From assembly GCA_021815805.1 (NCBI GenBank), contig JAKAZQ010000001.1, positions 136,998-200,997 of the forward strand: a stretch of DNA of 64,000 nucleotides. The letters run 5' to 3'. The stretch is from Pseudomonadota bacterium (GTDB lineage Bacteria; Pseudomonadota; Gammaproteobacteria; Burkholderiales; Burkholderiaceae_C). Positions 8,268-25,252 of this stretch are shown piece after piece. Numbering within the stretch: position 1 is the stretch's first letter; each line of letters begins with the position of its first letter. The notes under the pieces are model-generated. The model did not search any database. It was not told the origin of the DNA and was given only the letters and a program-made list of their open reading frames with translations. The position numbers and the translations under genes were made by a program.

Positions 8268-8899
8268 GGCGCGCTCGCGGCGGCCCCCGCGAGCGCGCGG
8301 GACACCGTCATGCAGGGCGCGTCCGGCGACGCCGCCGCCGGGGTGTCGATGACCAGGCTCAGCCGCTGCAGGTCGTCGCCCTGACGACGCTGCAGGCGCA
8401 GGATGTACGGCACGCCGGCGCGCCGGCGCAGGTGCACCTGCCAGCCGAGCTGCTCGAACCCCCCCTGCGACAGTGCGCGCCAGGGCAGCGCGGCCGCCGG
8501 GCGGCCGCGCAACCAGTCGCGCAACGCCGTTCGCGGCAAGCGCACACCGAGCATGACCTGGGTCATATCCTCGAACGACGGGAAGCTGCGCCGCGTGCGG
8601 CCGTCGTCGACGCTGGCGGCGTCGGCGTTCCAGCTTGCGCGCATCAGCACCTGGCCGAGCGGCGACGCGAGCTCCAGGCGTCCGCCGTCGCCGTCCAGGC
8701 GCAACGCGAAGGAGCCGTACAGGTCGTGCGCCCGCGGCCCCTGCTCGACCACCGAAATGCGCCCGCGGTAGTCGAGCGCGCAGGCACCATGCACGCCGCG
8801 CAGCGGCGGTCGCGTGGCGCAGGCGCCGAGCAGCACGGCAAGCCCTGCCGCGACGCATGCGCGCAGCAGGCGGGGGCGCATCCCGCGCAGATTGCGCAT
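8264..8899 (-). CDS. lolB: Outer-membrane lipoprotein insertase LolB
   Basis: Receives lipoproteins from LolA and inserts them in the outer membrane. The protein (211 aa) has a lipoprotein signal with lipobox LLGAC, then a region matching LolB, with the core DLYGSFALRLDGDGGRLELAS and the later GRPAAALPWRAL segment. Start ATG 8897-8899 overlaps the TPR gene's stop by one base, and its own stop overlaps the ispE start (4 bases). An in-frame ATG six codons later is an alternative. The order TPR-lolB-ispE is standard for the group and supports the call despite weak sequence conservation in this family. Confidence 0.85.
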   Translation of the reverse strand: MRNLRGMRPRLLRACVAAGLAVLLGACATRPPLRGVHGACALDYRGRISVVEQGPRAHDLYGSFALRLDGDGGRLELASPLGQVLMRASWNADAASVDDGRTRRSFPSFEDMTQVMLGVRLPRTALRDWLRGRPAAALPWRALSQGGFEQLGWQVHLRRRAGVPYILRLQRRQGDDLQRLSLVIDTPAAASPDAPCMTVSRALAGAAASAP

Positions 8900-10812
8900 C
8901 AGAAGCTCAGGCCCAGCCGGTGCATGGCGCCGAGCACGCCGGCATCCCGCGGCGCTGCCAGCCACGCTCGGTGCAGCAGCTCGGTGGCGCGCTGGCGCTG
9001 GCCGCGGCGCCACAGCACCTGCGCGAGGTGGGCCGCGATCTCCGGGTCGGCGCGCCCGTCGTAGGCCTGCTCCAGCAGCTGCTGCGCCAGCACTGGATTG
9101 CCGAGGCGGAATTCCACCCAGCCCAGGCTGTCCATCACGAACGGATTGCCGGGGCTCAGGCGCAGCGCGCGCCGGATCAGCGCGCGCGCCCGACGCAGTT
9201 CACGGCCCTGGTCGGCCAGGCTGTAGCCCAGCGCGTTGAGCGCCGGCTGGTAGTCGGCATGCTCGCGCACGATGCGCTGCAGGATCTCGTCCATGCGCGA
9301 GGTGCGCCCGGCCTGCGCCGCGGCCATCGCCGTTTCATAGGCGTAGTCCGCCTGGTGGCCCCAGGCGTGCATGCCCGAGGCCAGCGCGGCGTAGGCGCGC
9401 CGGGGCTCGTGGATATCCTGCAGCAGCTCGGCGAGCGCCAGCAGCCGCTGCCGACGCTCGCCGCCGCTGCCGCGGGGCAACGCCTGCACCAGGGCCACGC
9501 CGTCGCGCACCCTGCCCTGCGCGACCAGCACCCGCGCGCGCTGCAGCGCCACGGCCGCGCCGTCGCGCTGTCCCGCCGGGATGCGTTGCAGCCACTCCGC
9601 CGCGCGCGGCGCGTCGCCCTGGGCCAGCGCGACATCCGACAGCGCGAGGTAGACGCGCGCCAGGTCGGCGTCCGAAATGCGCTGCGTGAGCGCGTGACCC
9701 TGGTTGCCGGCCGCGGCGCCGCCGGAGGCTCGCGCCGACGACGACGCCGACGACGCCGGCGGGGCTGCGGCGGATGCGGCCTGCGAAGCCGCGCCGGCCG
9801 GGCGCGCAGTGTCGTGGAGCAGATCCTGCAGCGACGGATCGTCGGGTCTCACCAGCCGCAGAAAACGCAGCAGAGCCTGCTCCGCCTGGCGCGGCCGGCC
9901 GAGCTGCTGCTGCAGCGAGCCGAGCGTAAGCCAGACCTGCGGCAGGCGCGGCTGACGTCGCGCCAGCGCCCGGCATGCGCGCAGCGCCACGCTCGCGCGC
10001 TGCTGCCCAGCCGCGGCGTCCACCCACAGCATGCGCAGCGAGTCATCGTCGGGATGCGCCTTGAAGTATCCCGCGAGCAGCCGGTCCGCGCGCGGGGGAT
10101 CGACCGTGTAGTGCTGCAGCACCAGCATGGCTGCCGGACGCAGCGAGGCATCGGCCTGCAGTGCGCGCGCCGCGCGCGCCACGCCGGCGCTGGCTTCGCC
10201 GGAAAGGATCTGCAGGTTGGCGATCACCACCTGCGACTGCGGCAAGGCGGCGTAGGGTGCGAGGCTGTGCCGCGCCAGCGCCAGCGCACGTGCAACGTCG
10301 TGCATGCCCTCGAAAACGCCCCCCAGCACGAGAATGGTCTGCGGACGTTGCGGCGCCGGGGTCATGGCCAGCAGACGGCCGATCGCGGCCGCCGCCTCGG
10401 TGTCACGCCCGAGTCCCAGCAGCAGCTGCACGCGCCAGGCCTGCGCGCGCAGTGATTCAGGCTGCAGTTCGCGCCAGGCATCGACCGCGGCAAGCGCCTG
10501 GTGCGGGCGCTGGGCGGCCAACGCGACATGCACCGCGCGCTCGAACAGCGGCTCGGAGTGCATGTCCCGGGCAGCGCGCAGCAACTCCGCATAGGCCACC
10601 TCGGGATGCCCGGTGCGCGCCGCGATCTCCCCGGTGAGAGTCGAGTAGCACCAGCGTGCCTGCTGTTCGGCATCGTCGCGCGCGCGGCGCGACGGCTGGA
10701 CATGGCTCAGCACGGCCACCGCGTCGGATCTGTCGACGCCGGGGGACGCCCCTCGGGCAGCCACGCCCAGCATGGCCGACAACGACAAAGCGACGAGAAC
10801 GACTGCGCGCAT
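8899..10812 (-). CDS. Exported tetratricopeptide-repeat protein
   Basis: A 637-aa protein with a signal peptide (MRAVVLVALSLSAMLGVAARG) and helical TPR-type repeats along its length, for example QPALNALGYSLADQGRELRR followed by NPFVMDSLGWVEFRLGNPVL near the C-terminus. A low-complexity Ala/Ser linker (about residues 345-375) divides it. The family is found upstream of lolB in many Betaproteobacteria; its role is not established, though the context suggests envelope or lipoprotein biogenesis. ATG 10810-10812 is chosen for the signal peptide; there is no good Shine-Dalgarno. Confidence 0.85.
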   Translation of the reverse strand: MRAVVLVALSLSAMLGVAARGASPGVDRSDAVAVLSHVQPSRRARDDAEQQARWCYSTLTGEIAARTGHPEVAYAELLRAARDMHSEPLFERAVHVALAAQRPHQALAAVDAWRELQPESLRAQAWRVQLLLGLGRDTEAAAAIGRLLAMTPAPQRPQTILVLGGVFEGMHDVARALALARHSLAPYAALPQSQVVIANLQILSGEASAGVARAARALQADASLRPAAMLVLQHYTVDPPRADRLLAGYFKAHPDDDSLRMLWVDAAAGQQRASVALRACRALARRQPRLPQVWLTLGSLQQQLGRPRQAEQALLRFLRLVRPDDPSLQDLLHDTARPAGAASQAASAAAPPASSASSSARASGGAAAGNQGHALTQRISDADLARVYLALSDVALAQGDAPRAAEWLQRIPAGQRDGAAVALQRARVLVAQGRVRDGVALVQALPRGSGGERRQRLLALAELLQDIHEPRRAYAALASGMHAWGHQADYAYETAMAAAQAGRTSRMDEILQRIVREHADYQPALNALGYSLADQGRELRRARALIRRALRLSPGNPFVMDSLGWVEFRLGNPVLAQQLLEQAYDGRADPEIAAHLAQVLWRRGQRQRATELLHRAWLAAPRDAGVLGAMHRLGLSF

Positions 10813-10948
10813 GGGAGGAAATCGGGTGCGGTGCGTCAATGTCTCCAGTGTAGTGGCCGACGCACCGGCCCCCGCCGCGGCGCGTGGCCGCGCGCCTTGC
10901 GAGCGGGCTGGCAAGCGCGCGCGTCGATGCGATATCGCACACGCCGGC

Positions 10949-12949
10949 TCAGAGCTGCGGCGGCATCGGCAGCGGCACCTCGCGCTCGGGCCCTGACAGC
11001 ACCATCGCGGTGCCGGAAATGGCCTGTACGCTGGCGTAGCGGCAGACCATGTTCAGCGCCTCGCATTCCTGCTCGAAGTCGATGCTGTACGCAAGCTTCG
11101 GCTGCGCGCTGACTCCGGGCATGCTCACCATCAGCAGACGCAGCGACCCCAAGGGGGCGGCGCGCGCCGCCACGGCCAGCATCTTGTGTGCGGGCGCGAG
11201 GTCCAGCAGGCGCAGCCGATTCGTGGCCCGCAGGCCCTGCGCAAGCTCGATCGCGCGCTGCGAGCCGGCCTTGCGCTGCAGCAGGTTGTAGTCCGTCGAG
11301 TACAGCTTTCCATCGACCAGCATGAACGCCCGGGCCATGGTTCCCGACGTATGGGTCCACGCCTCGACCGCGCTGGCGGCCAGCGGCGCGTCGACGTGAA
11401 GCGGCGCGAAGGCCGGGCTCTGCAATCCTGCCGCAGGCACCTGGTCGGAGAATGACTTGGCCAGCACCCGAAGCGGCAGCAGCCCATAGCCGGCTTGGTC
11501 GAAGCGCCCCCACAGCAGGTAATCGCTGCCGCCGCGCGCGTCGGTCAGCGGCAACACCCCCAGCACGCTGCGGCGGTGCTGCTCGGGGACCATGCCCGAG
11601 CCGACCATGAATCTGCGCAAGGAGGCGTCCTTGTGCAGCGCGTCGCGCATCAGCGCCGCGTAGAGCGGGCGCGACTCGTTGAACAGGCCTTCGATCACCA
11701 GCAGGCTGTCGCCGAGTCCGGCAAGGTGGGCGATGGGATGCAAGGGATACAGCGGGTGGCCGTCGTTCCAGCCGGACGCGTGATCGCCGCGGCAGAACAC
11801 CATGCCGCGCGGACGCTCCGAGGAATTGTCGCCCTCGAGCACGCACACGCCATGATCCAGCAGGCTCAGATCCATCAGCTGCAGGCCGGGAAACACGCGA
11901 AAGAATTCCTCGTGCTGGGTGAAGTCACCATGCCACGCCAGCATGGCTTCCTGCGAGGCGACGTACAGGCGCTCGCCGTCGCGCGCGACCTCGAGGTGAC
12001 GCAGACACTGCGTCGAGCGCGGCTCCCCGCCCACGCAGCCCCAGAGCAGCAACGGACGCTTGAAGTAGACCTCGGGTCGCTTCGGGTCCTGCTCGAGCTC
12101 GAACACTGCCGAACCGAACCTGGGCGGGCCGGAGATCGACACGTAGAACACATTGCGCAGGCGTGCCGTCGCCTGCGCCTCGATCAGTTCCGACTGCCCC
12201 GCACGGGGGTGGAGCAATTCGGCTTGCATGCGCAGCTTGCTGGTGCTCGACGGCATCGGCTCGAGCTTGTCGGCCAGGCGCAGCACCCCTGCGCAGGCCG
12301 GCTGCTGGGCGCTGAGGGTCAGGCCGAAGGTGCACAACGGCAGATCCGGGTCCCGCAGCTTGCGATAGCGCTGCGGGTCGGCGCCGATTTCCATGGCGTG
12401 CACCGGAACGATGCGCTGTGGATCGGTCTCGAGCTTGGCCAACTTGACCGCGTCGTCGGCACGCGCCGGCTGGTAGTGCAGGGTGTAGCGCAACGCGCGC
12501 AAGCCGAGGTTGCCCCCCAGGCGCAGCTCCAGGCTCCCCGGGCGTGACGCCCCCGGCTGCCGCGTATCCGGCTCGGGAAGGCGCAGCTGCGGCTCCCGGA
12601 AAGGCGAGGCCAGGTCACCCTGGAGCACGCCGGGATCGCGCCGCGACGGCACTGGCCAGCCTGTCGAGGGATGGCGCCATTCCTGGCGCCTGGACGGGAT
12701 CGAGGCCGTCGCCGTGTCGGAGCGCGGGCCCGACGCGACGGGGCCGAGAACTCCGAAGATCTCCAGGATCTCGTGCACCAGCACCACGCCCACCAGGAAC
12801 ATCACGGTCAGCGCACTGTAGAACGCATACCCGACGGAGATCAGCTTGCCACCCCCGGCAGCGGCAGCGCTGTTCGCGCCCGCAAGCCCCCCGAGCCCTG
12901 TCGCACGACGCCCCCACCTGCACAGGCGCCGAAAGCAATAGCCAGCCAT
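10949..12949 (-). CDS. Membrane-anchored propeller-like protein, paralog 6 of 6 (most divergent)
   Basis: I do not recognise this family. The 666-aa protein has a basic N-terminus, one strong membrane segment (about residues 36-62), a Pro/Arg-rich linker, then a beta-rich part that aligns with its five upstream neighbours. It keeps the core cysteines C206 and C219 (C-x12-C), the second pair around GVCVLEG, and the blade-like VARDGERLYVAS. It lacks the D-D-G-S-R-T-L motif of the other five and has an extra C-terminal Cys (NMVCRYASV). GGAGG lies 8 bases before the ATG at 12947-12949. It is last in the array, 136 bases before the TPR gene. Predicted periplasmic, anchored in the inner membrane. 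Confidence 0.8.
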   Translation of the reverse strand: MAGYCFRRLCRWGRRATGLGGLAGANSAAAAGGGKLISVGYAFYSALTVMFLVGVVLVHEILEIFGVLGPVASGPRSDTATASIPSRRQEWRHPSTGWPVPSRRDPGVLQGDLASPFREPQLRLPEPDTRQPGASRPGSLELRLGGNLGLRALRYTLHYQPARADDAVKLAKLETDPQRIVPVHAMEIGADPQRYRKLRDPDLPLCTFGLTLSAQQPACAGVLRLADKLEPMPSSTSKLRMQAELLHPRAGQSELIEAQATARLRNVFYVSISGPPRFGSAVFELEQDPKRPEVYFKRPLLLWGCVGGEPRSTQCLRHLEVARDGERLYVASQEAMLAWHGDFTQHEEFFRVFPGLQLMDLSLLDHGVCVLEGDNSSERPRGMVFCRGDHASGWNDGHPLYPLHPIAHLAGLGDSLLVIEGLFNESRPLYAALMRDALHKDASLRRFMVGSGMVPEQHRRSVLGVLPLTDARGGSDYLLWGRFDQAGYGLLPLRVLAKSFSDQVPAAGLQSPAFAPLHVDAPLAASAVEAWTHTSGTMARAFMLVDGKLYSTDYNLLQRKAGSQRAIELAQGLRATNRLRLLDLAPAHKMLAVAARAAPLGSLRLLMVSMPGVSAQPKLAYSIDFEQECEALNMVCRYASVQAISGTAMVLSGPEREVPLPMPPQL

Positions 12950-13123
12950 ACCGCAATCCTCCAAGACCGAAGCGCCGGAAACCCGGGGCTGCGACAGCCC
13001 ATGACCCCGCCTCGCCACCGCAGCAACGCATGTCGCGCCAGCATATCGCCATATCAATTTATTGTGATGTTTAGTGTCGTGCTGCCGCTCACTTCGATGT
13101 CGCCCGCATCGCTTCGGTGGTAT

Positions 13124-13179
13124 CGCCCGCCTGTCGCCGCCCGCCTGTCGCCGCCCACCTGTCGCCGCGCATCTGTCGC
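13124..13179. repeat. Four 14-bp tandem repeats between paralogs 5 and 6
   Basis: Contiguous units of CGCCCGCCTGTCGC start at 13124, 13138, 13152 and 13166; the first two are identical, the third has one change and the fourth two. They lie just downstream of the stop codon of paralog 5. No spacers, so not CRISPR. The rest of the 255-base gap is non-coding, with an AT-rich stretch at 13048-13080 that could hold a promoter for paralog 6. Confidence 0.9.
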
Positions 13180-13204
13180 AGGCGCCGCCCTCGGCGCGCC
13201 GACC

Positions 13205-15271
13205 TCAGTCGGGCGCGGCGCGCGGATGGCGCGGAGCCAGCAACAGCGTGTTCCGACTGAGATGCTCGACGTAGTAGATCGCCGTCGGTCCGGGCAGCAA
13301 CTGCGCCAGTTGCTGGTCGAAGTACAGGATCCGCGCTGCCCCGGGGGCTGCCGCGAAATGCGGCACGTGACGCATCAGCACGCCCGCGCGCAGAGAACCT
13401 CCCGCATCGTGACTGCCACCCAGCGCGAGGGTTCTCGAGCCATCGTCGGCCTCCAGCAGCGCAGCCGCGCCATGGTCATGCCAGCCTTGCGGCGCGTCGT
13501 AGGCGGTATGCGATACGGCCCTCGCACGCCGCAGGTCGTAGTAGTCGGACGTGAGGCCATGGTCGGCACTGAAGATGCGCACCTGCTCGGCCCGCGGCGA
13601 GTACCAGGACAGCACCAGCAGCGCCGACTGCTGGATGCTGCGCCCGGCGCTGAAGCTCGGTCCGACGTCCACCCGCGGCGGCACCATCCCGGAGGCCACG
13701 CCCGGGTATAGGCTGGCGACCTGCAGCGCATCACGCGAGCCTGAAAAATAGCCGTGCAGCACAAACTGCTGCGGCAGCTTCGCGCGCGGCGACACTCCGA
13801 GCACTCCCAGCACCACCCGGCCCGGGTTCGCGTCACGCGGCAGCAGCCCGACTACGTGCATCGCGGGCCATGGCAGGGACGCGTCGGGCACCCAGGCCCC
13901 GAGCAGAGGCCGCAGACTGCGCCACTGCTGGTCCACGATCAGCAGGCTGTTGCCCAAGGCGGCCATGGCATAAGGCTCCATCAGGTATTCCGGGAATTCC
14001 CGCACCGGTAGCGGAAGGACCTGCGGCGGATCCCACTGGTCGGATCCCTGGTTGCTGCAGCGAAGCGCCGCCGAGATATTCCCGGTGCCCTCGAGCATGC
14101 ACACCCGCCCGTCGATCATGGCCATCGGGCCCAGCCAATTTCCACCGCCGACCTGCAGGCGCAGCATCGGCGGCGTCTCGGCCCCGCCCGTCCACTCGAA
14201 CACGCGGTGCGGAGTGGACAGGTACAGGCGCGAGCCGTCGCGCGACAGTTGCATGTGCTCGAGTCGCTGCATGGGCAGGGTCAGGGTCTCGCCGTTGCCG
14301 AAGCCGTGCAGATAGGTCCTGGTCCAGAGATCAGGGTTCTGCGCATCACGCTGCACCATGTACAGCGCACTGCCGACGAAGCCCAGGCTCGCGAAGCTGA
14401 CGAAGAACACCTCCTTGATCGCCAGGCCGCGGCGCGCGCGCAGCGTGCCCGGCAGATGCTCGACGAATGCGTCCTCGCCGGCCAGGCCGTTCGGCTGCGT
14501 GGTGCTGGCGTAGAAGCTCAGCGGCGTCGACGCGCCATGCCGGCTGCTGCGCTGCGCCGCCACGCGCACCACGCCCACGCACGATGGCTGCTGCGCATCC
14601 AGGCGCAGGCCGCGCTGGCACAGGCGTTCGGCCGCCCCACCAGGCCAGCCGTAGGCGGCGGGTTGCGCCTCGATCTGCTGCGCCGGCACCCACTCGACCT
14701 GCTCCGCGTCGAGCCGCGCGTGGTGCAGGTAATAGCGCACTTGCGCCGACTCTCCCGCATCGCCGCGATAGCTCAGACGCAGGCGCAGGTGGTGGAAGTC
14801 CAGGTTGTCGAGAAACTCGAGATCGAGACCCCGTACACCCTGCTTCGCCGGCGCATCGTCCGCTTCGGCATTCTGCGGATGCCCGGGCTTGGGCAGCGCG
14901 ATCTGCTGCTTTGCCGTGCCCGCGGATGGCAGGGGCGGCGGGCCCTTGCTGATGTGGAACACGCTCATTTCCACTTCCTTGACGGAACGCGTTGCCTCAC
15001 CTCCGGGCGGATCCGGCCGTTCGAGCTGCCGGCCCCCGGGCCCGGTGGCGCCCTGCACGCCGGGGTCCGGGCGCAGCAGCGTCCAGACAAAGCAGGCCAG
15101 CACCAGCACGAGTGCACTGGCGCCCATGAGCAGCGCCTGAGGCAGCAGGGGGCTGAGTCCCGGCAGCGCCGGAACCAGCACCCCCGTGACAGTCGCCCTG
15201 GTCTTCCAGCTCGCCAAGGCGGCAAGGGCGGCAAGGCCCGAGCGCAAACCGCGAAAGCGTCGGTTCAACAT
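13205..15271 (-). CDS. Membrane-anchored propeller-like protein, paralog 5 of 6
   Basis: Family unknown to me. The 688-aa protein begins with a basic stretch and hydrophobic segments (about 29-66) ending in VLVLACFVWTLL, then a Pro/Gly linker with the short motif MSVF, then the conserved part: FLDNLDFHHLRLRLSYR, YYLHHARLD, WVPAQQI, C218-x12-C231, the blade motif LSRDGSRLYLST followed by VFEWTG, a second Cys pair (VCMLEG to ALRC), GNSLLIVDQQW, WVPDASLP, ADDGSRTL, and a C-terminal YYVEHLSRNTLLLAP. Closest to paralog 3 (for example GFVGSALYMVQRD is identical). ATG 15269-15271 has GGAG 6 bases upstream; an in-frame TTG four codons earlier is less likely. Confidence 0.85.
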   Translation of the reverse strand: MLNRRFRGLRSGLAALAALASWKTRATVTGVLVPALPGLSPLLPQALLMGASALVLVLACFVWTLLRPDPGVQGATGPGGRQLERPDPPGGEATRSVKEVEMSVFHISKGPPPLPSAGTAKQQIALPKPGHPQNAEADDAPAKQGVRGLDLEFLDNLDFHHLRLRLSYRGDAGESAQVRYYLHHARLDAEQVEWVPAQQIEAQPAAYGWPGGAAERLCQRGLRLDAQQPSCVGVVRVAAQRSSRHGASTPLSFYASTTQPNGLAGEDAFVEHLPGTLRARRGLAIKEVFFVSFASLGFVGSALYMVQRDAQNPDLWTRTYLHGFGNGETLTLPMQRLEHMQLSRDGSRLYLSTPHRVFEWTGGAETPPMLRLQVGGGNWLGPMAMIDGRVCMLEGTGNISAALRCSNQGSDQWDPPQVLPLPVREFPEYLMEPYAMAALGNSLLIVDQQWRSLRPLLGAWVPDASLPWPAMHVVGLLPRDANPGRVVLGVLGVSPRAKLPQQFVLHGYFSGSRDALQVASLYPGVASGMVPPRVDVGPSFSAGRSIQQSALLVLSWYSPRAEQVRIFSADHGLTSDYYDLRRARAVSHTAYDAPQGWHDHGAAALLEADDGSRTLALGGSHDAGGSLRAGVLMRHVPHFAAAPGAARILYFDQQLAQLLPGPTAIYYVEHLSRNTLLLAPRHPRAAPD

Positions 15272-15363
15272 GTACAACTCCAAGGTTCATGCGGCGCCCA
15301 CCGCCGGGTTGGGGTCGACGCGCCACGCCAGGCCACTGACCGCAACGAAAGGGCCGGGAGCAC

Positions 15364-17442
15364 TCAGTTCACGCTCGCGTAATCGCGGGCCCGCACGCGA
15401 GCTGCAGACAGCACCAGGGTGTTGTCGGTGACGTGACGCACGTAGTACGAACTCGGCAGCAGCGACAGCCCGAGTGCGGCAAGTGCATCGTCGAAGGCGA
15501 TGGCCTGTGGCTCGCCGGGATCGGCCATCAGGCTGTGCACCGGACGCAGCATCAGGCCGACCCATTCGGCGCCCGGGGACTCCTGCCGGCCTCCCGTCAC
15601 CAGTGTTCGCGATCCGTCGTCATGCCGGAGCAGGTTCAGCGCCGAGTGATCCCGCCAGCCCTGCGGCCAGGACAGCGTGTTGTGGCGCAGCTGCCTGCGG
15701 TTCTTCATCGCATAGTGGGTGGAGACGGTCCTCAGCCCACGACTGAAGATGCGCGCGACCCCGGATTCCGGGATGCTCCATGCCACGGCACGCCACTCGG
15801 GCCAGGCCCCGCTGCGTTCGCCAAAGCTGTCCCCGGTCGACACCACGGGCCGCAGCAGGCCCGCACCGGGCCGCGGCAGCAGCGTCACCGGCCGGAACAC
15901 GTGGGCAAGGGACGGAAAGCGCCCGTACAGCAACAGCTGCAGTTCCTCACTGCCAGGCCTTGAAAGCGACAGCGCACCGAACAGGTCGCGGCCCGGAACG
16001 TATTCGCTGGACGCCAGCGTGAGCTCCTGCAAGCGCGGCTGCACCAGCGACGCGTCGGGCACCCAGATCGCCGGCAAGGCCCCCGTCTGCCCGCGCTGGC
16101 GGTCGATCAGCAACAGGCCGTTGCCGTGCGCAAGCATGACAAAGGCGCGGCTGCGGGGGGGCTGCGGCCAGCCGGGCCCGTCTCTGGGCAGTGCCAGCTC
16201 CGGTCCCCAGAATGCAGCCCCCTGGGCAAGGCATCGCAACAGGGGTTCGGGTTCGAGCACGCGCTGTTCGATGACGCACACGTGGTGGTCGATCACCGCA
16301 GCCGCCGTCAGCAGACCGGGTTCGAACAACGCGGTCAGCACGCGCGGCTTCGCCGACGGCGTGCCGGTCCATTCCTGCAGATCTCGGCTCGAGCCCAGGT
16401 ACAGGCGGCTGCCGTCGCGCGCCAACTGAAGGAAGGTGACGCCGTGCATCGGCAGGGACGGCAGCGGGCCGTGTCCGGGGCCAGTCCTGCCCCGCAGCGG
16501 GATCGTGCGCCACTGCGCGGGCTGCTCGGCGTCGCGCGCAACCATGTAGACCGCGCTACCGTTCGCGGAAAGGTTCTCGAAGCTGACAAAGAATCCCTCC
16601 CTCAGGTGCAGACGGCGACGCGCGCGCAGGGTTGTCGGCTGCTGCTCGACCCAGGCGTCCTCGCCCGGCAGGGCCTGCGGCCTGGTGGTGGCGGCATAGA
16701 AGGCCAGACGCGTCGACGAGATGCCGGTGCCGGTTCGCTGCGCCGAAACACGGACGACTCCCCGGCACGACGGGCTCGCATCGTCCAGACGCATGCCGAT
16801 GGCACAGGCGCGCGCCGCCTCGCCCTGCTGCGCGTGGTAGGGCGCAACCCCATAGGCGATGCGCAGCGGCGCGACCATCGCGACCTGGGCCTGGTCGATG
16901 TGCACGTGATGCAGGTAATAGGGCGCATGCCCCTGCTGGCCGAAGCCGGGGCGGTAGGTGAGCTGAAAACGCAGCTGCCGCAGATCGACGTTGTCTCCGA
17001 AGCGCAGTTCCAGGCGCGGCCCCGCTTGCTGCGTCGACGTGTCGTCACGGGAAGGCTGCAAGGGCCCCGGCTTGTGCGCCAGCGCATCGTCCGGCAGGCT
17101 GGCGTCGCCGCCGCTGACCTGCTGGCCGCCCGGCATCAAGGTGGCGCTGGCATGCTGCGTCGGCTTGCCGGGATCCCTGGATCCGCCGTGCATCGGCACG
17201 CTGCGCACCTCAGGCGTGGGAACACGCGGCGCGTCGCGGCTGCGCACCTGCTCCAGCACCCTGCCCGCGAGCATCGCGGCGCCGGTGAGCAGCATCGCGC
17301 CGATGGCCCCCGCCGTCGCGTACTGCAGCGCCTGCGCCAGCATCGGCTGCAGCACGGGCGGCGGGATCTTCATCAGCATCGGCGCAAGCGCCAGTACCGA
17401 AGCCACACGGCCGCGTACCCAAAGGGACAGCAATGCGAACAT
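15364..17442 (-). CDS. Membrane-anchored propeller-like protein, paralog 4 of 6
   Basis: Family unknown to me; 692 aa. N-terminal hydrophobic region (about residues 12-60, with ATAGAIGAMLLTGAAMLAG), Pro/Ser linker, then the conserved beta-rich part: LRFGDNVDLRQLRFQLTYRP, C213-x12-C226, GSAVYMVARD, LARDGSRLYLGSS followed by EWTG, second Cys pair (HVCVIEQ to LLRC), NGLLLIDRQR, IWVPDASL, RHDDGSRTLVTGG, and YYVRHVTDNTLVLS at the end. It is nearest to paralog 1 (shared GSAVYMVARD and the NLLRHDDG block). AGGAGG lies 8 bases before ATG 17440-17442. Gap of 83 bases to paralog 3 and 92 to paralog 5. Confidence 0.85.
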   Translation of the reverse strand: MFALLSLWVRGRVASVLALAPMLMKIPPPVLQPMLAQALQYATAGAIGAMLLTGAAMLAGRVLEQVRSRDAPRVPTPEVRSVPMHGGSRDPGKPTQHASATLMPGGQQVSGGDASLPDDALAHKPGPLQPSRDDTSTQQAGPRLELRFGDNVDLRQLRFQLTYRPGFGQQGHAPYYLHHVHIDQAQVAMVAPLRIAYGVAPYHAQQGEAARACAIGMRLDDASPSCRGVVRVSAQRTGTGISSTRLAFYAATTRPQALPGEDAWVEQQPTTLRARRRLHLREGFFVSFENLSANGSAVYMVARDAEQPAQWRTIPLRGRTGPGHGPLPSLPMHGVTFLQLARDGSRLYLGSSRDLQEWTGTPSAKPRVLTALFEPGLLTAAAVIDHHVCVIEQRVLEPEPLLRCLAQGAAFWGPELALPRDGPGWPQPPRSRAFVMLAHGNGLLLIDRQRGQTGALPAIWVPDASLVQPRLQELTLASSEYVPGRDLFGALSLSRPGSEELQLLLYGRFPSLAHVFRPVTLLPRPGAGLLRPVVSTGDSFGERSGAWPEWRAVAWSIPESGVARIFSRGLRTVSTHYAMKNRRQLRHNTLSWPQGWRDHSALNLLRHDDGSRTLVTGGRQESPGAEWVGLMLRPVHSLMADPGEPQAIAFDDALAALGLSLLPSSYYVRHVTDNTLVLSAARVRARDYASVN

Positions 17443-17525
17443 GGTGGATTCCTCCTGGATGGGGTGAGAACTCCGGCGTCGTGCCCGCCTGCGAGCTGCT
17501 GCACGTGCCCGTGACCGGCCTGTCG

Positions 17526-19583
17526 TCAGACGGATGGCGAGGGCCGTGGGTGGCAAGGCGTCAGCAACAGCGCATTGCGGGTCACGTACTGGACGAAATA
17601 CTCGGCCGTCGGACCGGGTGGCAACTGCGCAAGGTCGTGCCCGAAGTCGATGACGTACGAAAGCCCTCGAGGCAGGCCGGTGAAACTCGGCAGGGCTTGC
17701 AGCAGCAAGCCGACGCGAACGGGCTCGACGCCCTGCCGCAGCGCGCCCCCGGCCACCAGGGTGCGCGAGCCGTCGTCGTGCTCGAGCAGGTTGAACGCAC
17801 CGTGCCTGTCCCAGGCGGAGGGAAAGTCCAGCGCGGCATGCGACAGCGCTCGGCCGCGCCGGCGGTCGTAGTGGTCCGACACGATGTCAGGAGCGGCGCT
17901 GAACAGGCGGATCTGATCCGTCCCGGCGAGCGCCCACACGTGGCTTGTCTCCACCGCCCGGACCAGGCTCTCGCGAGGGCTGAAGCCTTGCCCCACCCGC
18001 ACCTCGCGCGGGCCGCCCGCCGGCCCGCCTGGAAACACCTGGACCACCGCGAGGGAAGTGGCCGATCCGGAGAAGAATCCATGCAGCACGAATTGCTGCG
18101 GGGACTGTCCGCGCGGGGAGACTGCGATCGCACCCAGGATCGCGCGTCCGGGATGCTGCTCGGCCTGGGCCAGCGTGAGTTCGTGCATGGAGGGCAGTGG
18201 CAGCGTGGCATCGGGCACCCAGACCGCAGGCAAGGCCCCGGTGACCCGCCATTGCTGGTCGACGATCAGCAGGCTGTTCCCGGAGGCCGCGATGCTGTAG
18301 GGCTCGAACAGGTGCGGCGCGGCCCCCTGCACGCTGTGGGGAATGAGACGGGGCGGATCCCATCGGGAGGAATTCTGGGAACTGCAGCGCAGCGCGGCCG
18401 AGAAGCGACCGTTGCCCTCGACCACGCACACGCGATGGTCGATGGTGTCGAGGCCGCTGAGCCAGTACCCGCCGGCCGCCTGGAGCAGCAGGCGCGGGGG
18501 CGTGCCGGTGTCGCCCAGCCATTCGAACACGCGGCGCGGCGTCGACAGATACAGGCGCGAGCCGTCGCGCGACAACTCCATGTGATCGAGGCGCTGCCAG
18601 GGCAGGCTCAGGGCCTGCCCCGTGCCCTGGGCGCGCAGGTAACTCTTGATCCAGGCCCCGGGAAACAGCGGATCGCGCTGCACCATGTACAGCGCACTGC
18701 CGACGAAGCCCAGGCTGGAGAAGGCGACGAAAAACACCTCCTTCAGCGCCAGGCTGCGGCGCGCGCGCAGCGTGCCCGGACGCTGGGCGATGGCATCGAC
18801 CTCGCCTGGCAGCCCGCCGGGCCGCTGCGTGGCCGCGTAGAAGCTCAGCGCGGTCGAGGTGGTGTGCTTGCCGGTGCGCTGCGCGGCCACGCGCAGCACC
18901 CCCTCGCAGGACGGCCGCTGCGCATCCAGCAGCAGCCCGGGCTGGCACAGGCGCGGCTGCGCTCCCGCTGGCCAGCCATAGGCCGAGGGATAGGCGCCGA
19001 CCTGCTGCGCCGGGACCCATTCGAGCTGCGTCGGATCGAGCCGCGCGGGGTACAGGTAATAGCCCACGCCGGGCTCGCGATCCTTCGGGCGGTAGCTCAG
19101 GCGAAAGCGCAGCCTTCGCATGTCCAGGTTGTCGAGGAACTCCAGGTTGAGACCCCGCACGCCCGGCTCGACCTGCGGATCGTCGTCGCCGACGCCCGCC
19201 TTCGCGTCTTCCGGCGTCCAGTACTGCTGCTGGCCGGCGTCCGCGGTCGACACGTGCTTCGGATCCAACGGAGCGCCGCCGAACACGCTCATCTCCTCGC
19301 CCCCCGGCCGCGTGGCCGAGTCCTTGTGGGGCAGCATCGGCGACTCGACCTCCGGCGCTGGCGCCGGCCACGGCGCCGGGACGCGCTGGGTGAGCGTCAG
19401 CACGAGGGCGCCGACCAGCACCACGGCGAGGCCAACGCCCGCGCAGATCGACGCGGGCACAAGGCCGGCCAGCAGCGGCAGGCCGGCCGTGAGCACGCCG
19501 CCGACGGCGCTCCGTATCGACGACACGAGGCCCGCGAGCGCGACCACGCGGCACACGGACGATCGGGGTGGACGCTTGGACAT
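17526..19583 (-). CDS. Membrane-anchored propeller-like protein, paralog 3 of 6
   Basis: Family unknown to me; 685 aa. After a basic start come hydrophobic segments (about 12-64, including VGLAVVLVGALVLTL), a linker with MSVFGGAP, then the conserved part: FLDNLDMRRLRFRLSYRP, EWVPAQQV, C213-x12-C226, GFVGSALYMVQRD, LSRDGSRLYLST followed by VFEWLG, second Cys pair (RVCVVEG to ALRC), GNSLLIVDQQW, VWVPDATLP, EHDDGSRTLVAGG, and a C-terminal YFVQYVTRNALLL. AGGAG lies 7 bases before ATG 19581-19583. The frame stays open 92 codons upstream through the 15-bp repeats but with no similarity to its paralogs, so that extension is not used. Confidence 0.85.
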   Translation of the reverse strand: MSKRPPRSSVCRVVALAGLVSSIRSAVGGVLTAGLPLLAGLVPASICAGVGLAVVLVGALVLTLTQRVPAPWPAPAPEVESPMLPHKDSATRPGGEEMSVFGGAPLDPKHVSTADAGQQQYWTPEDAKAGVGDDDPQVEPGVRGLNLEFLDNLDMRRLRFRLSYRPKDREPGVGYYLYPARLDPTQLEWVPAQQVGAYPSAYGWPAGAQPRLCQPGLLLDAQRPSCEGVLRVAAQRTGKHTTSTALSFYAATQRPGGLPGEVDAIAQRPGTLRARRSLALKEVFFVAFSSLGFVGSALYMVQRDPLFPGAWIKSYLRAQGTGQALSLPWQRLDHMELSRDGSRLYLSTPRRVFEWLGDTGTPPRLLLQAAGGYWLSGLDTIDHRVCVVEGNGRFSAALRCSSQNSSRWDPPRLIPHSVQGAAPHLFEPYSIAASGNSLLIVDQQWRVTGALPAVWVPDATLPLPSMHELTLAQAEQHPGRAILGAIAVSPRGQSPQQFVLHGFFSGSATSLAVVQVFPGGPAGGPREVRVGQGFSPRESLVRAVETSHVWALAGTDQIRLFSAAPDIVSDHYDRRRGRALSHAALDFPSAWDRHGAFNLLEHDDGSRTLVAGGALRQGVEPVRVGLLLQALPSFTGLPRGLSYVIDFGHDLAQLPPGPTAEYFVQYVTRNALLLTPCHPRPSPSV

Positions 19584-19650
19584 GCGGGACTCCTGGACTG
19601 GTGCTGCGCCTGGCCGCATCGGCGGCCGGGCACGATGCGAGGTGCGGGAA

Positions 19651-19726
19651 AACGATGGGGAGCGGGAACGATGGGAGCGGGAACGATGGGCGCGGAAGCG
19701 ATGGGGGCGCAAGCGATGGGCAGCGA
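19651..19726. repeat. 15-bp tandem repeats in the paralog 2-3 spacer
   Basis: Five imperfect units with the core A-R-C-GATGGG start at 19651 (16 bases long), 19667, 19682, 19697 and 19712. They occupy the 321-base gap 19584-19904, the longest in the array. The rest of that gap holds a possible small open frame starting at ATG 19871-19873 with AGGAG upstream, discussed under findings; otherwise I see nothing in it. Confidence 0.85.
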
Positions 19727-19904
19727 CATGCCGGCGCGGGCTCGCGCGCCGCTGCGCTCGTCGCGACCGCGCAAGCTGTGCAGCCCCACCCGCGCAAACG
19801 CCAGTCCGTCCTGGCGCTCGCCGGCGACGCTCGGTGCGCAGCCGCGGCGAAGGTGGCACGGCGGAATCGGCATGTCGGTTTTCTCCTGTCGGTGCGACCC
19901 TGGA

Positions 19905-21992
19905 CTAGGCATCGTGCGGGGCCAGCACCAAGGCGTTGGGCGTGACATGCTCGACGCAGAAGGCGCTGGGCTCCTGCACGGCATCCAGCTGTTCGAGGGC
20001 TTGATCGAACGGGATCAAGTGGCCCGCTTCGGGCATGGCCATGAAACCGGGAATGCGCTGGATCAGCAGGCCCAGCCGTCCCCCCCCGGAGAGCTCGCGC
20101 CCTCCGGCAACCAGGGTTCTGGAGCCGTCGTCGTTGTCGAGCAGGCTGAAGGCGTTGTGGTCGCGCCAGGTCGGCGACCAGCGCAGATGCTGGCGGCGCA
20201 GCTGCCGGCTCGGGTTCAGCGCATGGAAGGTCGAGGTGATCGACATGCCGCTGCTGAAGATACGCACCACGCCGCCGCCCGGGCGCCGCCAGATCGCGAC
20301 ATGCCTGGGGGCCGGCTCCTGGGCCGAGATCTCGCCGAAAACGGCGCCCGACGCGACCTCGGCGCGCGGCCCGTGCGGCGTCGACTGCTGGAACAACGCA
20401 AGGTGCGCGAAGGGCCGGCGTGGCGAAGGAAACTGTCCGAACACCAGATAGTGCGCCGGGGCATCGCCCGCACCCGACAACGCGACGACGCCGTTCACCG
20501 CGCGCCCGGGACTTCGCGCGCTGCGCTCCAGGGTGAGGGCATGCATGCGCGGCGAGGGCTCCGACGCATCGGGAATCCACGATGCGGGAAGGTCGAACAT
20601 GTTGAACCCCTGTCGGTTGGTGATCAGCAGGCTGTTGCCGTGGGCCGCCAGCACGAAGGGCATGCTCATGTTGAAGGGCATCGCGTCCACCGTGTGCGGG
20701 ATCGGCGCCGGCTCGTCCCACTGGCTCGAGCCCTGGCTGCGACAGCGCAGCGCGGCCGCGCGATGTCCGTTCTGCTGGACCACGCACACGCGGCGGTCGA
20801 GCACCGCCATGCCCGCGAGCAGGTGCGGGGTGTGCGCGTCCAGCAGAATGCGCGGCCTGGCACGGGGAGTGCCGGTCCATTCGTACACGCTGAACCGTGT
20901 GCCCAGGTACAGCCGGGTGCGGTCGCGCGACAGCTGCAACTCGTCGACCTGCTCGCCGGGCAGGCTCAGGCCCCTGCCGTCGCCGAAGCCGCGCAGGTAG
21001 GTCGGGCGCCACGCTGACGGGTCGTCCGGCTGCCGCGCGAGCATGAACAGCGCGCTTCCGGACTCGGTCAGGCTCGCGAAACTGACAAAAAGCGCCTCCT
21101 TCAGCGCCAGCACACGTCGCGCGCGCAGCGTCGACCGGCTGCCTTCCACCATCGCATCCTCGTGCGGCAGGCCCAGCGTCGCCACGCGCGTGGCAAAGAA
21201 GTCCAGCGGGCTCGTGGTGGTGCGCATAGCGGTACGCTGCATCGCCACGCGGACCACTCCGAAACAGATCGGATGCTCGGCATCGAGGCGCAGCCCGCGC
21301 GTGCACAGCCGCGGCGGCCCGTCGCTCCAGCCATAGTCCTCGGGATGGTCCGTGATCTGCCGGGCCGGCACGATCTCCAGCTCCGCGGGATCCACCCGTC
21401 CGTGGTGCAGGTAGCGCGGAGCGCCGCTGTCCACCGGCATGGCCGGCACGTAGGTGACGGTGTAGCGCAGGTGCCGGAAATCGATGTTGATCCCGAGGTC
21501 CAGCGCCAGGCGCGCCGGCGTGCCCGGCGGCTCCTGCTGCGCCGGCTGCAGCGGCTGCCGGATCCGCGGCTGCGCCGGCCCGAGCGTGCTCTGGCCGGCC
21601 TGCTGGCCGGCCGCGCCCGCCCTGTTCAGCGGCCCCAGAGCGAAGACGTTGTTTTGCGCCCCTCGCGCACCGTGCGGCTGGATGCGCGAGGCTTCGTGAC
21701 CCGGACGCGCGACGATCGGCGGCGGCGCGAGCGACGGCGCGCCAGGAAGTGTGCGGACCACCAGCCAGCCGACCCCTGCAACGACGACGACCACGCCGAG
21801 CACGCCCACGGCAGCCTGGATCGTGCCTTGCAACAGCGAGCGCGCGAGGGTCGACGTCAGCGCCGGAAGCGCCGCCGGAACCATGCCGGCGACCGGTGCG
21901 AGCACCCCGGCGGCAAGCGCCTTGAACCTCAGGATGACAAGCGCGATCACGGCGGGCGCGAGCCGTCCGAGCCTGCGCAAGCCTGAACCCAT
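19905..21992 (-). CDS. Membrane-anchored propeller-like protein, paralog 2 of 6
   Basis: Family unknown to me; 695 aa. Long hydrophobic N-terminus (about residues 10-82) with a final membrane segment GVLGVVVVVAGVGWLVV, then a linker containing NNVFALGP and a Gln/Pro-rich stretch. Conserved part: NIDFRHLRYTVTYVP, C230-x12-C243, LSRDRTRLYLGT followed by VYEWTG, second Cys pair (RVCVVQQ to ALRC), GNSLLITNRQG, SWIPDASEP, DNDDGSRTLVAGG, and EHVTPNALVLAP at the end. AGGAG lies 8 bases before ATG 21990-21992. Only 44 bases separate it from the stop of paralog 1, so the two are probably co-transcribed. Confidence 0.85.
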   Translation of the reverse strand: MGSGLRRLGRLAPAVIALVILRFKALAAGVLAPVAGMVPAALPALTSTLARSLLQGTIQAAVGVLGVVVVVAGVGWLVVRTLPGAPSLAPPPIVARPGHEASRIQPHGARGAQNNVFALGPLNRAGAAGQQAGQSTLGPAQPRIRQPLQPAQQEPPGTPARLALDLGINIDFRHLRYTVTYVPAMPVDSGAPRYLHHGRVDPAELEIVPARQITDHPEDYGWSDGPPRLCTRGLRLDAEHPICFGVVRVAMQRTAMRTTTSPLDFFATRVATLGLPHEDAMVEGSRSTLRARRVLALKEALFVSFASLTESGSALFMLARQPDDPSAWRPTYLRGFGDGRGLSLPGEQVDELQLSRDRTRLYLGTRFSVYEWTGTPRARPRILLDAHTPHLLAGMAVLDRRVCVVQQNGHRAAALRCRSQGSSQWDEPAPIPHTVDAMPFNMSMPFVLAAHGNSLLITNRQGFNMFDLPASWIPDASEPSPRMHALTLERSARSPGRAVNGVVALSGAGDAPAHYLVFGQFPSPRRPFAHLALFQQSTPHGPRAEVASGAVFGEISAQEPAPRHVAIWRRPGGGVVRIFSSGMSITSTFHALNPSRQLRRQHLRWSPTWRDHNAFSLLDNDDGSRTLVAGGRELSGGGRLGLLIQRIPGFMAMPEAGHLIPFDQALEQLDAVQEPSAFCVEHVTPNALVLAPHDA

Positions 21993-22036
21993 GGCACTGG
22001 CTCCTCGGAACGATGCAGGGGACAGAGGCCGGCGGC

Positions 22037-24190
22037 TCACACGCCACCGCCGGACGCTGGCGCCGGTGACAGCAGCAGCGCATTGGACGTCACGTGCTCG
22101 GCGATGAACGACTGCGGGTTGCGGCCCTGCAGCCTGCGCAACTCCGGACTGAAATCGAGGGCCTGGGCTTCGCCGGGCGGCGCCATGAACCCCGGCACGT
22201 GGCGCAGCATCAGCCCGACCCACCAGTTGCCGACGGTCTGCAGATGCCCGCCCGTGACCAGGGTGCGCGTGCCGTCATCGTGACGCAGCAGGTTCAGCCC
22301 GAGGTGATCGCGCCAGCCGCGCGGCCATTCGATCTCGGCATGCAGCAACTGCTTGCGCTGGCGCAGCCCGTAGTGGGTGGACATGAGCGACGGCCCCGAA
22401 CTGAAGATGCGCACCGCGCCGGCGCCCGGGCGAGTCCAGGCCACGGCACGTAGCTCCGGGTAATCGGAGCTCCCGGCATGCGCGCCGAAGCTGGCACCCG
22501 GCGAGACATCGGGCGCCCCTGGCTGATTGCGGCCATCGCGGATCAGCGTGACAGGCTGGAACACATGCTTCTTGCCGGGAAACACACCGTGCATCACGAA
22601 GTGCTGGACGGCGTCGCCGGGGCCGGACACCGGCAGCACGCCGAACACCTGCCGACCCGGCTGGTACTCGGAGCGCGCCAGGCTTACGGCGTGCAGCAGC
22701 GCCGGCGCGACGGACACATCGGGTACCCAGAACGCACGCATCTCGCCGGTCTCCCGCCACTGCATATTGGCAATGAGCAGGCTGTTGCCATTCGCCGCCA
22801 GCCGCAGCCGCAGCGTCAGGAAGGCGGGGAGCCCGATGATCGAGTTGGCACGCGGCCGCGGCTGCAACGGGATCTGCGTCAGCTCATCCCATTGGCTGGC
22901 ACCCTGGGTCAGGCAGCGGAATGCGGCCGGCTGCGTCGACCAGCGCTGCAGCACGCAAACCCCGCGGTCCAGCACCGCGATGTCTCCCAGCCTCGAGTCG
23001 TCGCGCAGCGTGAGCAGCACCCGTGCATGGTTTTGCGGTGAACCCGTCCACTCGGACAACTCCCGCATCGACGACAGGTACAGGCGGGAGGCGTCCCGCG
23101 ACAACTCCAGGTTGAGCAACGGACGCATCGGCAGGCCGAGCAGCGGCACGCCGGTGCCGTGCCCCCGCAACGGGGTCTTGGTCCAGGCGCCTGGCTGGCG
23201 TGGATCGCGCGCCACCATGTACACGGCGCTGCCGCCGATGCCGTCGTCGGAGAAGGCGGCGAAGAAGGCCTCCTTCAGATCCAGATCGCGGCTCGCGTGC
23301 AAGGTGTCGCGAAGGCCCTCCACGGAGCCGGGCTCGTCGTCGGGACCCTGGATCGGCTGCGGCGTGGCGTAGAAGTGCACGGGGGTCGACGAAGTGCGCA
23401 GCGTGCGCGCTCGCGCCGCGGCCACGCGCATCACGCCCTGGCAGCGCGGCTGCCGGCGATCGAGACGCAGATCGGCCTCGCACAGGCGCGGGTGCTCGCC
23501 GGCGCGCCAGCCCCAGGCCGTCGGGTCGCCCTGGATCTGCTGCGACTGCACGAGCTCGAGCTGCTGCCCGTCGAAACGCGCGTGGTGCAGGTAATACGGG
23601 GTGTCCAGCGCATCGGCCGCGTCCGGCTGGTACTCCAGCGTGTAGCGCAAGCTGCGGAAGTCGACGTTGTCGTTCAGGCGCAGCATCAGGCGCGGCGCGC
23701 CCGGCTGCGCCGGCGGATCGTCGTGCTGGTCGGCCTGGGCATCGTGCGCGTCGCCGGGCATGCGCGAGGCGCCTTCGCCGGCGTTGCCGGGCGGACCGAG
23801 CGCAAAGATGGAATTGCGCCGCGGGTCGCCACGCGCATCGCCCGCACTGTCCTGCGGCGCCGGTCGCCGCCCGCGACCGGGCTGCTCGAGCACCGGCCTG
23901 CGCTGCACGCCCGCGGCACCCGCCGCGGCCGGCGCGTAGTCGCCGGATGAGCGGCTCTGCACGGCCTGCTGCAGCAGGCTCGCGGCGGTGGAGACGACGG
24001 CGATCGCGACGGCTCCCAGAACCGAGTACACGACCGAATTGACCAGCACCGGACCCAGCGCCGACATGACCGAGCTGATCAGCGGCGAGATCACGAGCAG
24101 CAGCGAGCCGGCGGCCCCCTTGCTCCACGCCAGCATGGCGGCGAACACCACCGCGATGCGCGCGCGGCCCCTGCGAAATCCAGCGAACAT
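22037..24190 (-). CDS. Membrane-anchored propeller-like protein, paralog 1 of 6
   Basis: First gene of the array; family unknown to me; 717 aa. Basic start, hydrophobic region about residues 12-75, a linker containing NSIFALGP and an Asp/Gln-rich stretch, then the conserved part: LRLNDNVDFRSLRYTLEYQP, YYLHHARFD, C237-x12-C250, GSAVYMVARD, LSRDASRLYLSS followed by SEWTG, second Cys pair (GVCVLQR to AFRC), GNSLLIANMQW, FWVPDVSV, RHDDGTRTLVTGG, and EHVTSNALLLSP at the end. GGAGG lies 8 bases before ATG 24188-24190. It is divergent from mutM across 240 bases whose only notable feature is an AT-rich stretch at 24325-24356, a plausible promoter zone. Confidence 0.85.
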   Translation of the reverse strand: MFAGFRRGRARIAVVFAAMLAWSKGAAGSLLLVISPLISSVMSALGPVLVNSVVYSVLGAVAIAVVSTAASLLQQAVQSRSSGDYAPAAAGAAGVQRRPVLEQPGRGRRPAPQDSAGDARGDPRRNSIFALGPPGNAGEGASRMPGDAHDAQADQHDDPPAQPGAPRLMLRLNDNVDFRSLRYTLEYQPDAADALDTPYYLHHARFDGQQLELVQSQQIQGDPTAWGWRAGEHPRLCEADLRLDRRQPRCQGVMRVAAARARTLRTSSTPVHFYATPQPIQGPDDEPGSVEGLRDTLHASRDLDLKEAFFAAFSDDGIGGSAVYMVARDPRQPGAWTKTPLRGHGTGVPLLGLPMRPLLNLELSRDASRLYLSSMRELSEWTGSPQNHARVLLTLRDDSRLGDIAVLDRGVCVLQRWSTQPAAFRCLTQGASQWDELTQIPLQPRPRANSIIGLPAFLTLRLRLAANGNSLLIANMQWRETGEMRAFWVPDVSVAPALLHAVSLARSEYQPGRQVFGVLPVSGPGDAVQHFVMHGVFPGKKHVFQPVTLIRDGRNQPGAPDVSPGASFGAHAGSSDYPELRAVAWTRPGAGAVRIFSSGPSLMSTHYGLRQRKQLLHAEIEWPRGWRDHLGLNLLRHDDGTRTLVTGGHLQTVGNWWVGLMLRHVPGFMAPPGEAQALDFSPELRRLQGRNPQSFIAEHVTSNALLLSPAPASGGGV

Positions 24191-24430
24191 CGAGCATTCC
24201 TCCGTAGTGCGACCGAAAAGGGCGGGCGGGCCACCGGCGCAGGCTGCGCGAAGCCGCCGGGAACCGGGCACGCGTCGGCGCGGTCGCGCCGGCGTTGCGC
24301 CTGCACGGCCTTGCCGTGCTCGCCTTTGCATTACCATTGGTTACATTTTTAGCAGCCATGGCTTGCCCGTGCATGTTCGAGGGGCGTGTCCTGGCGGCGC
24401 GCCGGCAGGCGACGGGCGCACAATGCGTGC

Positions 24431-25252
24431 ATGCCCGAACTGCCCGAAGTCGAAGTCACCCGGCGCGCCCTGCTGCAGCCCCTGCTGGGCAGCCGCATCC
24501 GAGGCGCAAGCCTCGGCAAGGCGCTGCGCTGGCCGCTGCGCTGCGCGCCCGACGAACTCGCCGGGCAGCGCATCGACAGCCTGGACCGACGCGGCAAGTA
24601 CCTGCTGATGGGGCTGCAACGCGGGCAGCTGATCGTGCACCTGGGAATGTCCGGCTCGCTGCGCTGGCATGGCGCAGGCGACGCCAGTGCAGCTGCGCCC
24701 GGGCCGCATGAACACTTCCGGCTGTTCACCGACCGCGGTGAACTGCGCCTGCACGACCCGCGACGCTTCGGAGCCGTGATCTGGCACGGGCACGCGCAGC
24801 CGCCGCACCCGCTGCTGCAGCGGCTCGGCCCCGAGCCGCTGCTTCCCGGGTTCGACGGCGAATGCCTGTGGCGCGCGCTGCACCCGCGCCGCGTCGCGGT
24901 GAAACTGCTGCTGCTCGATCAGTCGGTGGTCGCCGGCATCGGGAACATCTACGCCTGCGAGGCGCTGTTCCTGGCGGGCATCGATCCGCGTACTCCCGGC
25001 TGCCGCATTTCCCGAGCGCGCTGCGCGCGCCTGGCCGAGGCGCTGCGCGAGACCCTCGAGCAGGCGCTGCGAGCCGGCGGCAGCACGCTGCGCGACTTCT
25101 GCTCCAGCGACGGCGCCCACGGGCATTTCCAGCTCCAGGCGCGGGTCTACGGGCGCGGCGGACAGCCCTGCAGGCATTGCGCCGCGCCGCTGGCGCATGT
25201 GGTGCAGGGGCAACGCAGCACTTATTTCTGCCGCAACTGCCAGACGCGTTAG
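24431..25252 (+). CDS. mutM: Formamidopyrimidine-DNA glycosylase
   Basis: Removes 8-oxoguanine and formamidopyrimidines from DNA and cleaves the abasic site. The N-terminus must be MPELPEV, because Pro2 is the nucleophile and Glu3 is catalytic, so ATG 24431 is the start even though the frame is open further upstream. The helix-two-turn-helix region (about residues 130-220, with QSVVAGIGNIYACE) and a C-terminal zinc finger C-x2-C-x16-C-x2-C (QPCRHC to FCRNCQ) are complete. 273 aa, normal. It pairs functionally with mutY two genes downstream (the GO system). Confidence 0.97.
   Translation: MPELPEVEVTRRALLQPLLGSRIRGASLGKALRWPLRCAPDELAGQRIDSLDRRGKYLLMGLQRGQLIVHLGMSGSLRWHGAGDASAAAPGPHEHFRLFTDRGELRLHDPRRFGAVIWHGHAQPPHPLLQRLGPEPLLPGFDGECLWRALHPRRVAVKLLLLDQSVVAGIGNIYACEALFLAGIDPRTPGCRISRARCARLAEALRETLEQALRAGGSTLRDFCSSDGAHGHFQLQARVYGRGGQPCRHCAAPLAHVVQGQRSTYFCRNCQTR

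Follow-up and report, generated by a model that had tools for sequence, protein, structure and literature searches.

The six consecutive genes at 10949–24190 of the window, the 64,000-nucleotide stretch of bacterial DNA that was analyzed, encoded divergent members of one unnamed protein family, and we tentatively interpreted the array as a lineage-restricted, fast-evolving envelope binding protein that may have expanded into paralogs differing both in sequence and in the partners they bind. The genes (666–717 codons; Table 1) were arranged head to tail on the minus strand in frames that were open from end to end. All six showed G+C contents of the coding type at the three codon positions (0.71–0.73, 0.49–0.53, and 0.84–0.88, respectively) and had GGAG directly 5' of the ATG. 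The encoded proteins could be aligned over their whole length; the ectodomains of W2–W6 showed 39–56% identity with one another, the upper value being that between W2 and W4, and 24–27% identity, far above chance, with that of W1. This alignment and these identities bore out the description of six same-strand tandem paralogs in the initial annotation, which had given no strand. Gene dosage, which had been offered there as one meaning of the array, was made unlikely because the copies were only 24–56% identical. Both a single-protein search and a profile search of the genome itself (3.1 Mb in 71 contigs, 94.5% complete) gave six family matches, all inside the array, which lay well within a 277-kb contig.

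Table 1. Features of the array and its borders in window coordinates. W1–W6 are numbered by rising coordinate, and coding parts are given without the stop codon.
Feature	Position	Strand	Remarks
TPR-repeat gene	8899..10818	-	Downstream of array, site border; Pfam TPR models; start codon approximate; in 27/28 genus genomes
TPR-gene leader CACTACACTGGAG	10843..10855	-	Intact beside array
W1, family gene 1	10949..12949	-	666 aa; coding part 10952-12949; most divergent copy; adjoins TPR gene
AT-rich stretch upstream of W1	13043..13072	-	Possible separate promoter; 73% AT in 30-mer
W2, family gene 2	13205..15271	-	688 aa; coding part 13208-15271; ectodomain used for modelling
W2 ectodomain	13208..14848	-	547 aa; AlphaFold2, Foldseek; blades hand-assigned from DSSP string
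W3, family gene 3	15364..17442	-	692 aa; coding part 15367-17442; weakest hydrophobic anchor of array
W4, family gene 4	17526..19583	-	685 aa; coding part 17529-19583; W2 sister
W5, family gene 5	19905..21992	-	695 aa; coding part 19908-21992
W6, family gene 6	22037..24190	-	717 aa; coding part 22040-24190; first transcribed gene of array
AT-rich leader upstream of W6	24325..24354	-	Probable promoter region; GTAACCAATGGTA at 24332-24344
mutM (formamidopyrimidine-DNA glycosylase)	24431..25252	+	Divergent, other site border; in 27/28 genus genomes

Searches of Pfam, NCBIfam, PADLOC, and PDB sequences gave no named family for the array proteins beyond chance-level scores. The best Pfam scores were those of Secretin_N (E = 0.0047, W6 stalk), DoxX_2 (E = 0.058, W4), and DUF7931 (E = 0.0028, in two of the 11 ectodomains from the window and five relatives), none of which we take to be a propeller family. 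The scores of Secretin_N and DoxX_2 were below their curated cut-offs, and the Pfam matches in the stalk and anchor were judged to be composition noise. No Pfam or NCBIfam profile of WD40, NHL, YVTN, BNR, or another named propeller family was matched, none of the 11 ectodomains was matched in PADLOC, and the three PHROGs families that were matched (best E = 0.054) were of no use. Among PDB sequences, the first search gave only one unusable match, an antibody chain (E = 0.54), and a profile of 11 rows gave no match at E ≤ 10, the solved PLL/PHL chains included. Among the papers listed on Thiomonas, propeller arrays, lectins, periplasmic propellers, and immunity, none described this family. The statement in the initial annotation that the family was unrecognised therefore held, with no confident profile match to a described family in Pfam, NCBIfam, or PDB, and we regard the proteins as a new, unnamed family whose fold is known, for which no relative can be recognised by sequence, and whose function we infer.

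The motifs reported earlier as common to the array were only partly shared. C-x12-C was present in all six proteins, as was the relaxed form [LV][SA]RDxxRLY, but the exact LSRDGSRLY occurred in two, and DNxDxxxLR, EWTG, GNSLLI, WVPD, and DDGSRTL each in four of the six. The stretch between anchor and ectodomain was rich in Pro, Gly, and Gln, with a combined fraction of 0.32–0.41 in the six window proteins versus 0.20–0.24 in the ectodomain. When the six window proteins and their five relatives were examined by a simple hydropathy scan with a threshold of 1.6 on the Kyte-Doolittle scale, an N-terminal hydrophobic segment exceeded the threshold in five of the six array proteins, W3 falling below it, and all ten proteins having the segment carried three to six Lys or Arg residues and no Asp or Glu ahead of it. 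Four cysteine residues, C77, C90, C250, and C264 (W2 ectodomain numbering), were invariant in the 11 ectodomains, and five of the 11 proteins contained exactly these cysteines and no others. In the predicted structure of W2, C250 and C264 would oppose each other on one strand hairpin, judging from the strand register, as in a disulfide. The basic, acid-free start, the hydrophobic segment, and the four invariant cysteines together suggest that the N-terminus lies in the cytoplasm and that the ectodomain faces outward and is oxidised. The membrane anchor claimed in the initial annotation is probably right, since the basic start and hydrophobic segment were found in 10 of the 11 proteins. Each paralog would begin with a short basic cytoplasmic N-terminus, which leads into an inner-membrane anchor and a flexible Pro/Gly/Gln-rich stalk, and would end outside the cytoplasm in the beta domain and, after it, the roughly seven-bladed propeller.

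The structure of the W2 ectodomain was predicted by AlphaFold2 from the 11 sequences with a pLDDT of 84.5 and a pTM of 0.86. A first run with the six window sequences only had given 53.3 and 0.49, respectively, and the Foldseek matches of that poor model were already propellers; since the first model was poor, support for the fold comes from the single 11-sequence prediction. In the W2 model, a separate N-terminal beta domain (approximately residues 7–131) preceded a propeller at residues 136–539 of about seven blades, a number that was counted by hand from the DSSP string and is left approximate by two extra C-terminal strands. Foldseek gave 346 PDB matches at E ≤ 0.001 (best E = 5.6e-7), led by ROS1, mLST8, and PLL, with target-normalised TM-scores of approximately 0.6 for mLST8 and PLL, which are single propellers; the leading entries were propeller proteins. 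Propellers of the WD40 and lactonase types were also matched in the Foldseek viral library. These results predicted a beta-rich, propeller-like fold for the family ectodomain. The initial annotation had derived the propeller from the RDGSRLY-type motif as a mark of its blades; the fold itself was upheld by AlphaFold2 and Foldseek, but this basis was not, because the motif occurs once per protein and not once per blade, and so cannot demonstrate a propeller. No blade repeat was detected in the sequence either (21 blade pairs, mean profile score 8.7 versus 8.1 for shuffled pairs, P = 0.44), although a detectable sequence repeat is not strictly required of the beta-propeller fold. The predicted structure resembled the seven-bladed WD40 propellers of mLST8 (4jsp and 6zwm; E = 5.8e-7 to 8.1e-7, TM-score to target 0.59) in shape; unlike these, the family had neither a Pfam WD40 match nor a blade repeat in its sequence.

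PLL/PHL lectins were among the best structural matches (8q7u, 5c9o, 5c9l, and 5mxe), the modelled fold matching a Photorhabdus PLL with E = 1.5e-6 and a TM-score normalised to the target of 0.60. By analogy with Photorhabdus laumondii, for which passages of PMC12203525 describe five homologous seven-bladed lectins and so document several homologous propeller lectins in one species, the array could encode tethered propeller lectins with different glycan specificities. Three tryptophan residues that were invariant in the 11 ectodomains, W219, W272, and W415, would suit such sugar binding. We nevertheless consider a sugar-binding array quite unlikely, as identity with PLL/PHL was about 10% with no sequence-profile match, and many unrelated propellers, WD40 proteins included, scored equally well. 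Moreover, the family has an anchor and an N-terminal beta domain, neither of which is noted for PLLs in those passages of PMC12203525, where PLLs are predicted to be extracellular and no membrane anchor is mentioned.

The invariant residues of the 11 ectodomains were Arg, Tyr, Leu, Cys, Pro, Gly, Ala, Asp, Trp, and Phe, and no His, Glu, Lys, Asn, Gln, Ser, or Thr was invariant. Because no plausible shared catalytic set was present among them, the ectodomain was read as a binding module, and on this residue pattern the propeller most likely serves as a head that binds without catalysis. The bound partner might be a metal or small molecule if the proteins were periplasmic carriers analogous to AztD, a periplasmic zinc-binding propeller (PMC6689063) that was among the Foldseek matches (6n01_B, E = 1.8e-5) and, like the family, is a propeller from bacteria with a probable location outside the cytoplasm. 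Metal-rich mine water is a habitat of Thiomonas (PMC2829063). We regard a carrier role as highly improbable, however, since the family lacks invariant residues of the metal-binding type, including any invariant histidine or glutamate, and its genomic setting differs from that of AztD, with no transporter gene at the site and the RND efflux genes of the window some 24 kb away. Those genes, which stand in a row at 47676–53962 (membrane-fusion protein, RND efflux permease, response regulator, and sensor kinase), make up an efflux system together with a dedicated two-component regulator. When the loops of the predicted propeller were assigned by hand to its top and bottom faces, conservation among W2–W6 was 0.294 for the top and 0.453 for the bottom (position permutation, p about 0.001). 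The five single-copy relatives showed the same trend (0.524 versus 0.666), so that it may be general to propellers and gives weak support for diversified binding, which we regard as plausible among the paralogs.

A profile search of 28 genomes of the genus found the family in six, this genome having six copies and five others a single copy each; no copy was detected in the remaining 22. The copies are thus not always tandem, a question raised in the initial annotation, since five of the six carriers are single-copy. A search of genome contigs with the six window sequences alone gave no relative loci; a second contig search gave five loci, in the same five single-copy relatives, which were also the genomes recovered by a profile search of 60 relatives. 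Strong matches among 399 genomes of the taxonomic family were restricted to this genome and the single-copy genome G026, whose recovery served as a positive control, and the order-level (300 genomes) and phylum-level (398 genomes) surveys gave a match in this genome only. These surveys used overlapping samples with two to four candidates scored per genome, and distant relatives may therefore be missed. In the survey of the taxonomic family, a marginal match with E = 6.2e-6 at profile positions 16–137, the anchor and stalk part, was not counted as a relative after reading by eye, nor was another with E = 4.8e-4 over 73 positions. By its strong matches, the family is so far confined to one Thiomonas-like genus of sulfur bacteria.

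The family always occupied the same chromosomal site, between mutM (Pfam matches Fapy_DNA_glyco, H2TH, and zf-FPG_IleRS) and the TPR gene; for the pair used, both genes were on one contig each time (27 of the 28 genomes). The mutM–TPR gap was 64–147 bp in 21 genomes; it measured 2077–2275 bp in the five genomes with a single copy and 13612 bp at the array. In the single-copy genomes the gap of 2.1–2.3 kb held a family gene of 605–621 codons and no accessory gene. The same or a near copy of CACTACACTGGAG was found 5' of the TPR gene in the empty-site genomes inspected. Because this leader is kept at the array and at empty sites alike, the family occupies the stretch from the start of mutM to the leader. 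An interpretation as a mobile element was not supported: plasmids (W2 ectodomain as the query) and viral contigs (profile) showed no similarity, the G+C content of the array was 0.68–0.72 per 1.5-kb block, like its surroundings, and no integrase or transposase gene was present within the array. The distribution also bears on whether the paralogs are an envelope scaffold, that is, fixed subunits of a hetero-oligomer or a set of structural or assembly adaptors. Their common architecture, probable co-transcription, and invariant core residues fit such a role, as does a propeller acting as a protein-binding platform. Against it, five of the six carriers manage with one copy and most of the genus with no detected copy, and the site in single-copy genomes offers no other gene as a companion; we judge a scaffold to be decidedly unlikely.

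Because rpoB was missing from 12 of the 28 genomes, mutM and the TPR gene were used as the species marker; five genomes contributed just 251–322 TPR residues, and neither gene was detected in G025. The genomes in which the rpoB model was unmatched included this one, G009, and G018 (all at least 92% complete), and the absence is probably a binning gap, although it recurs. In the mutM and TPR tree, the genomes grouped closest to this one (support 90), G005 and G015, had an empty site, and the single-copy group (support 45) was nested with the empty genomes G018 and G027 (support 100). This patchy distribution would reflect either an old gene that was lost several times or one that moved by recombination between conserved flanks. 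In five genome pairs, the family protein showed 46–85% identity versus 87–94% for mutM and 82–94% for the TPR gene; relative to G026, W1, W2, W3, and W6 were 29–30% identical, and mutM and the TPR gene 79% and 66%, respectively. The two pairs for which dN/dS was computed gave ratios of 0.28 and 0.37, indicating that the family protein is under purifying selection and is functional, though only loosely constrained. In the family tree, W2–W6 formed one group (support 100) in which W2 and W4 were sisters (99) and the remaining splits were weaker (55 and 78), and W1 was placed between this group and the single-copy genes (support 100). As W2 and W4 are not adjacent, duplication did not proceed simply from one gene to the next. 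An ancestral single gene between mutM and the TPR gene, evolving fast, may have been duplicated repeatedly in this species to give W2–W6 beside the more distant W1; the copies would then have diverged, each probably binding a different partner or ligand.

Fast divergence and presence or absence at one site would also fit a homogeneous polyimmunity locus, in which each periplasmic paralog neutralises a different competitor toxin, for example one delivered by a type VI system. Such loci are described in passages of PMC3482391 as tandem, distantly related, co-oriented paralogs with no toxin genes between them, variable in copy number and one per genome, and the array matches several of these features: it is tandem, divergent, in one orientation, variable in copy number, at one locus per genome, and without toxin genes between the same-strand paralogs. 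For lipase effectors acting in the periplasm, the immunity proteins are usually periplasmic proteins or lipoproteins (PMC9860674). In the passages of the polyimmunity and effector literature concerned, however, most known immunity proteins are cytoplasmic, and the array proteins, unlike these, are probably not. The type VI sheath gene (VipB, PF05943) was present in all six carriers and in 9 of the 22 non-carriers (Fisher p = 0.018), but 14 of the 15 genomes in the clade that holds the carriers have it, so that shared ancestry explains the association. In addition, the ectodomains matched no known immunity family in Pfam and nothing in PADLOC, and the gaps inside the array reach 321 bp. The family proteins are also large for an immunity role. 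We therefore consider a polyimmunity locus unlikely, and there is a rather slim chance that giant membrane-tethered beta-propellers serve as interchangeable periplasmic antitoxin shields, a new polyimmunity class amplified and diversified at one fixed site; if true, they would be a new structural class of immunity protein. Under the preferred interpretation as diversified envelope binding proteins, an unnamed family of one genus, at one clean site, evolves several times faster than its neighbours and has been amplified six-fold in one species. Nature thus offers a tractable experiment: a named, cultivated strain, Thiomonas sp. FB-6, has the single-copy version, through which function could be reached in one gene, and the six divergent copies could then show how binding diversified.

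The leader that precedes W6 probably drives transcription of W2–W6, and W1 may in addition be transcribed from its own leader. The element GTAACCAATGGTA upstream of W6 differed by one mismatch from GTAACAANYGNTA, which precedes the single copy in four of the five relatives, and a motif pattern built from the relatives only had one match in the window versus 0.04 expected (4 of 100 shuffles gave one). The gaps were 44 bp for W6–W5, 321 bp for W5–W4, 83 bp for W4–W3, 92 bp for W3–W2, and 255 bp for W2–W1, and the four other than that before W1 reached at most 47% AT per 30-mer. A search for a consensus sigma-70 promoter was negative, and the number of terminator-like sites was near chance (8 versus 5.9 expected). 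The W2–W1 gap contained four copies of a 14-bp unit, CGCCCACCTGTCGC (92% match), at 13124–13179, and the W5–W4 gap about five copies of a 15-bp unit at 19644–19725. Elsewhere in the window, an open frame of 1198 codons at 28405–31998 matched the RNase adapter RapZ at residues 899–1188, and the real gene is probably its last quarter only. TPR genes of the genus (that of G007 and neighbouring ones, e.g. L010 36–1658) contained simple-sequence stretches whose translation in other frames gives Gly-Ser-Thr or His-Trp repeats; one genome had a masked stretch in its TPR gene.
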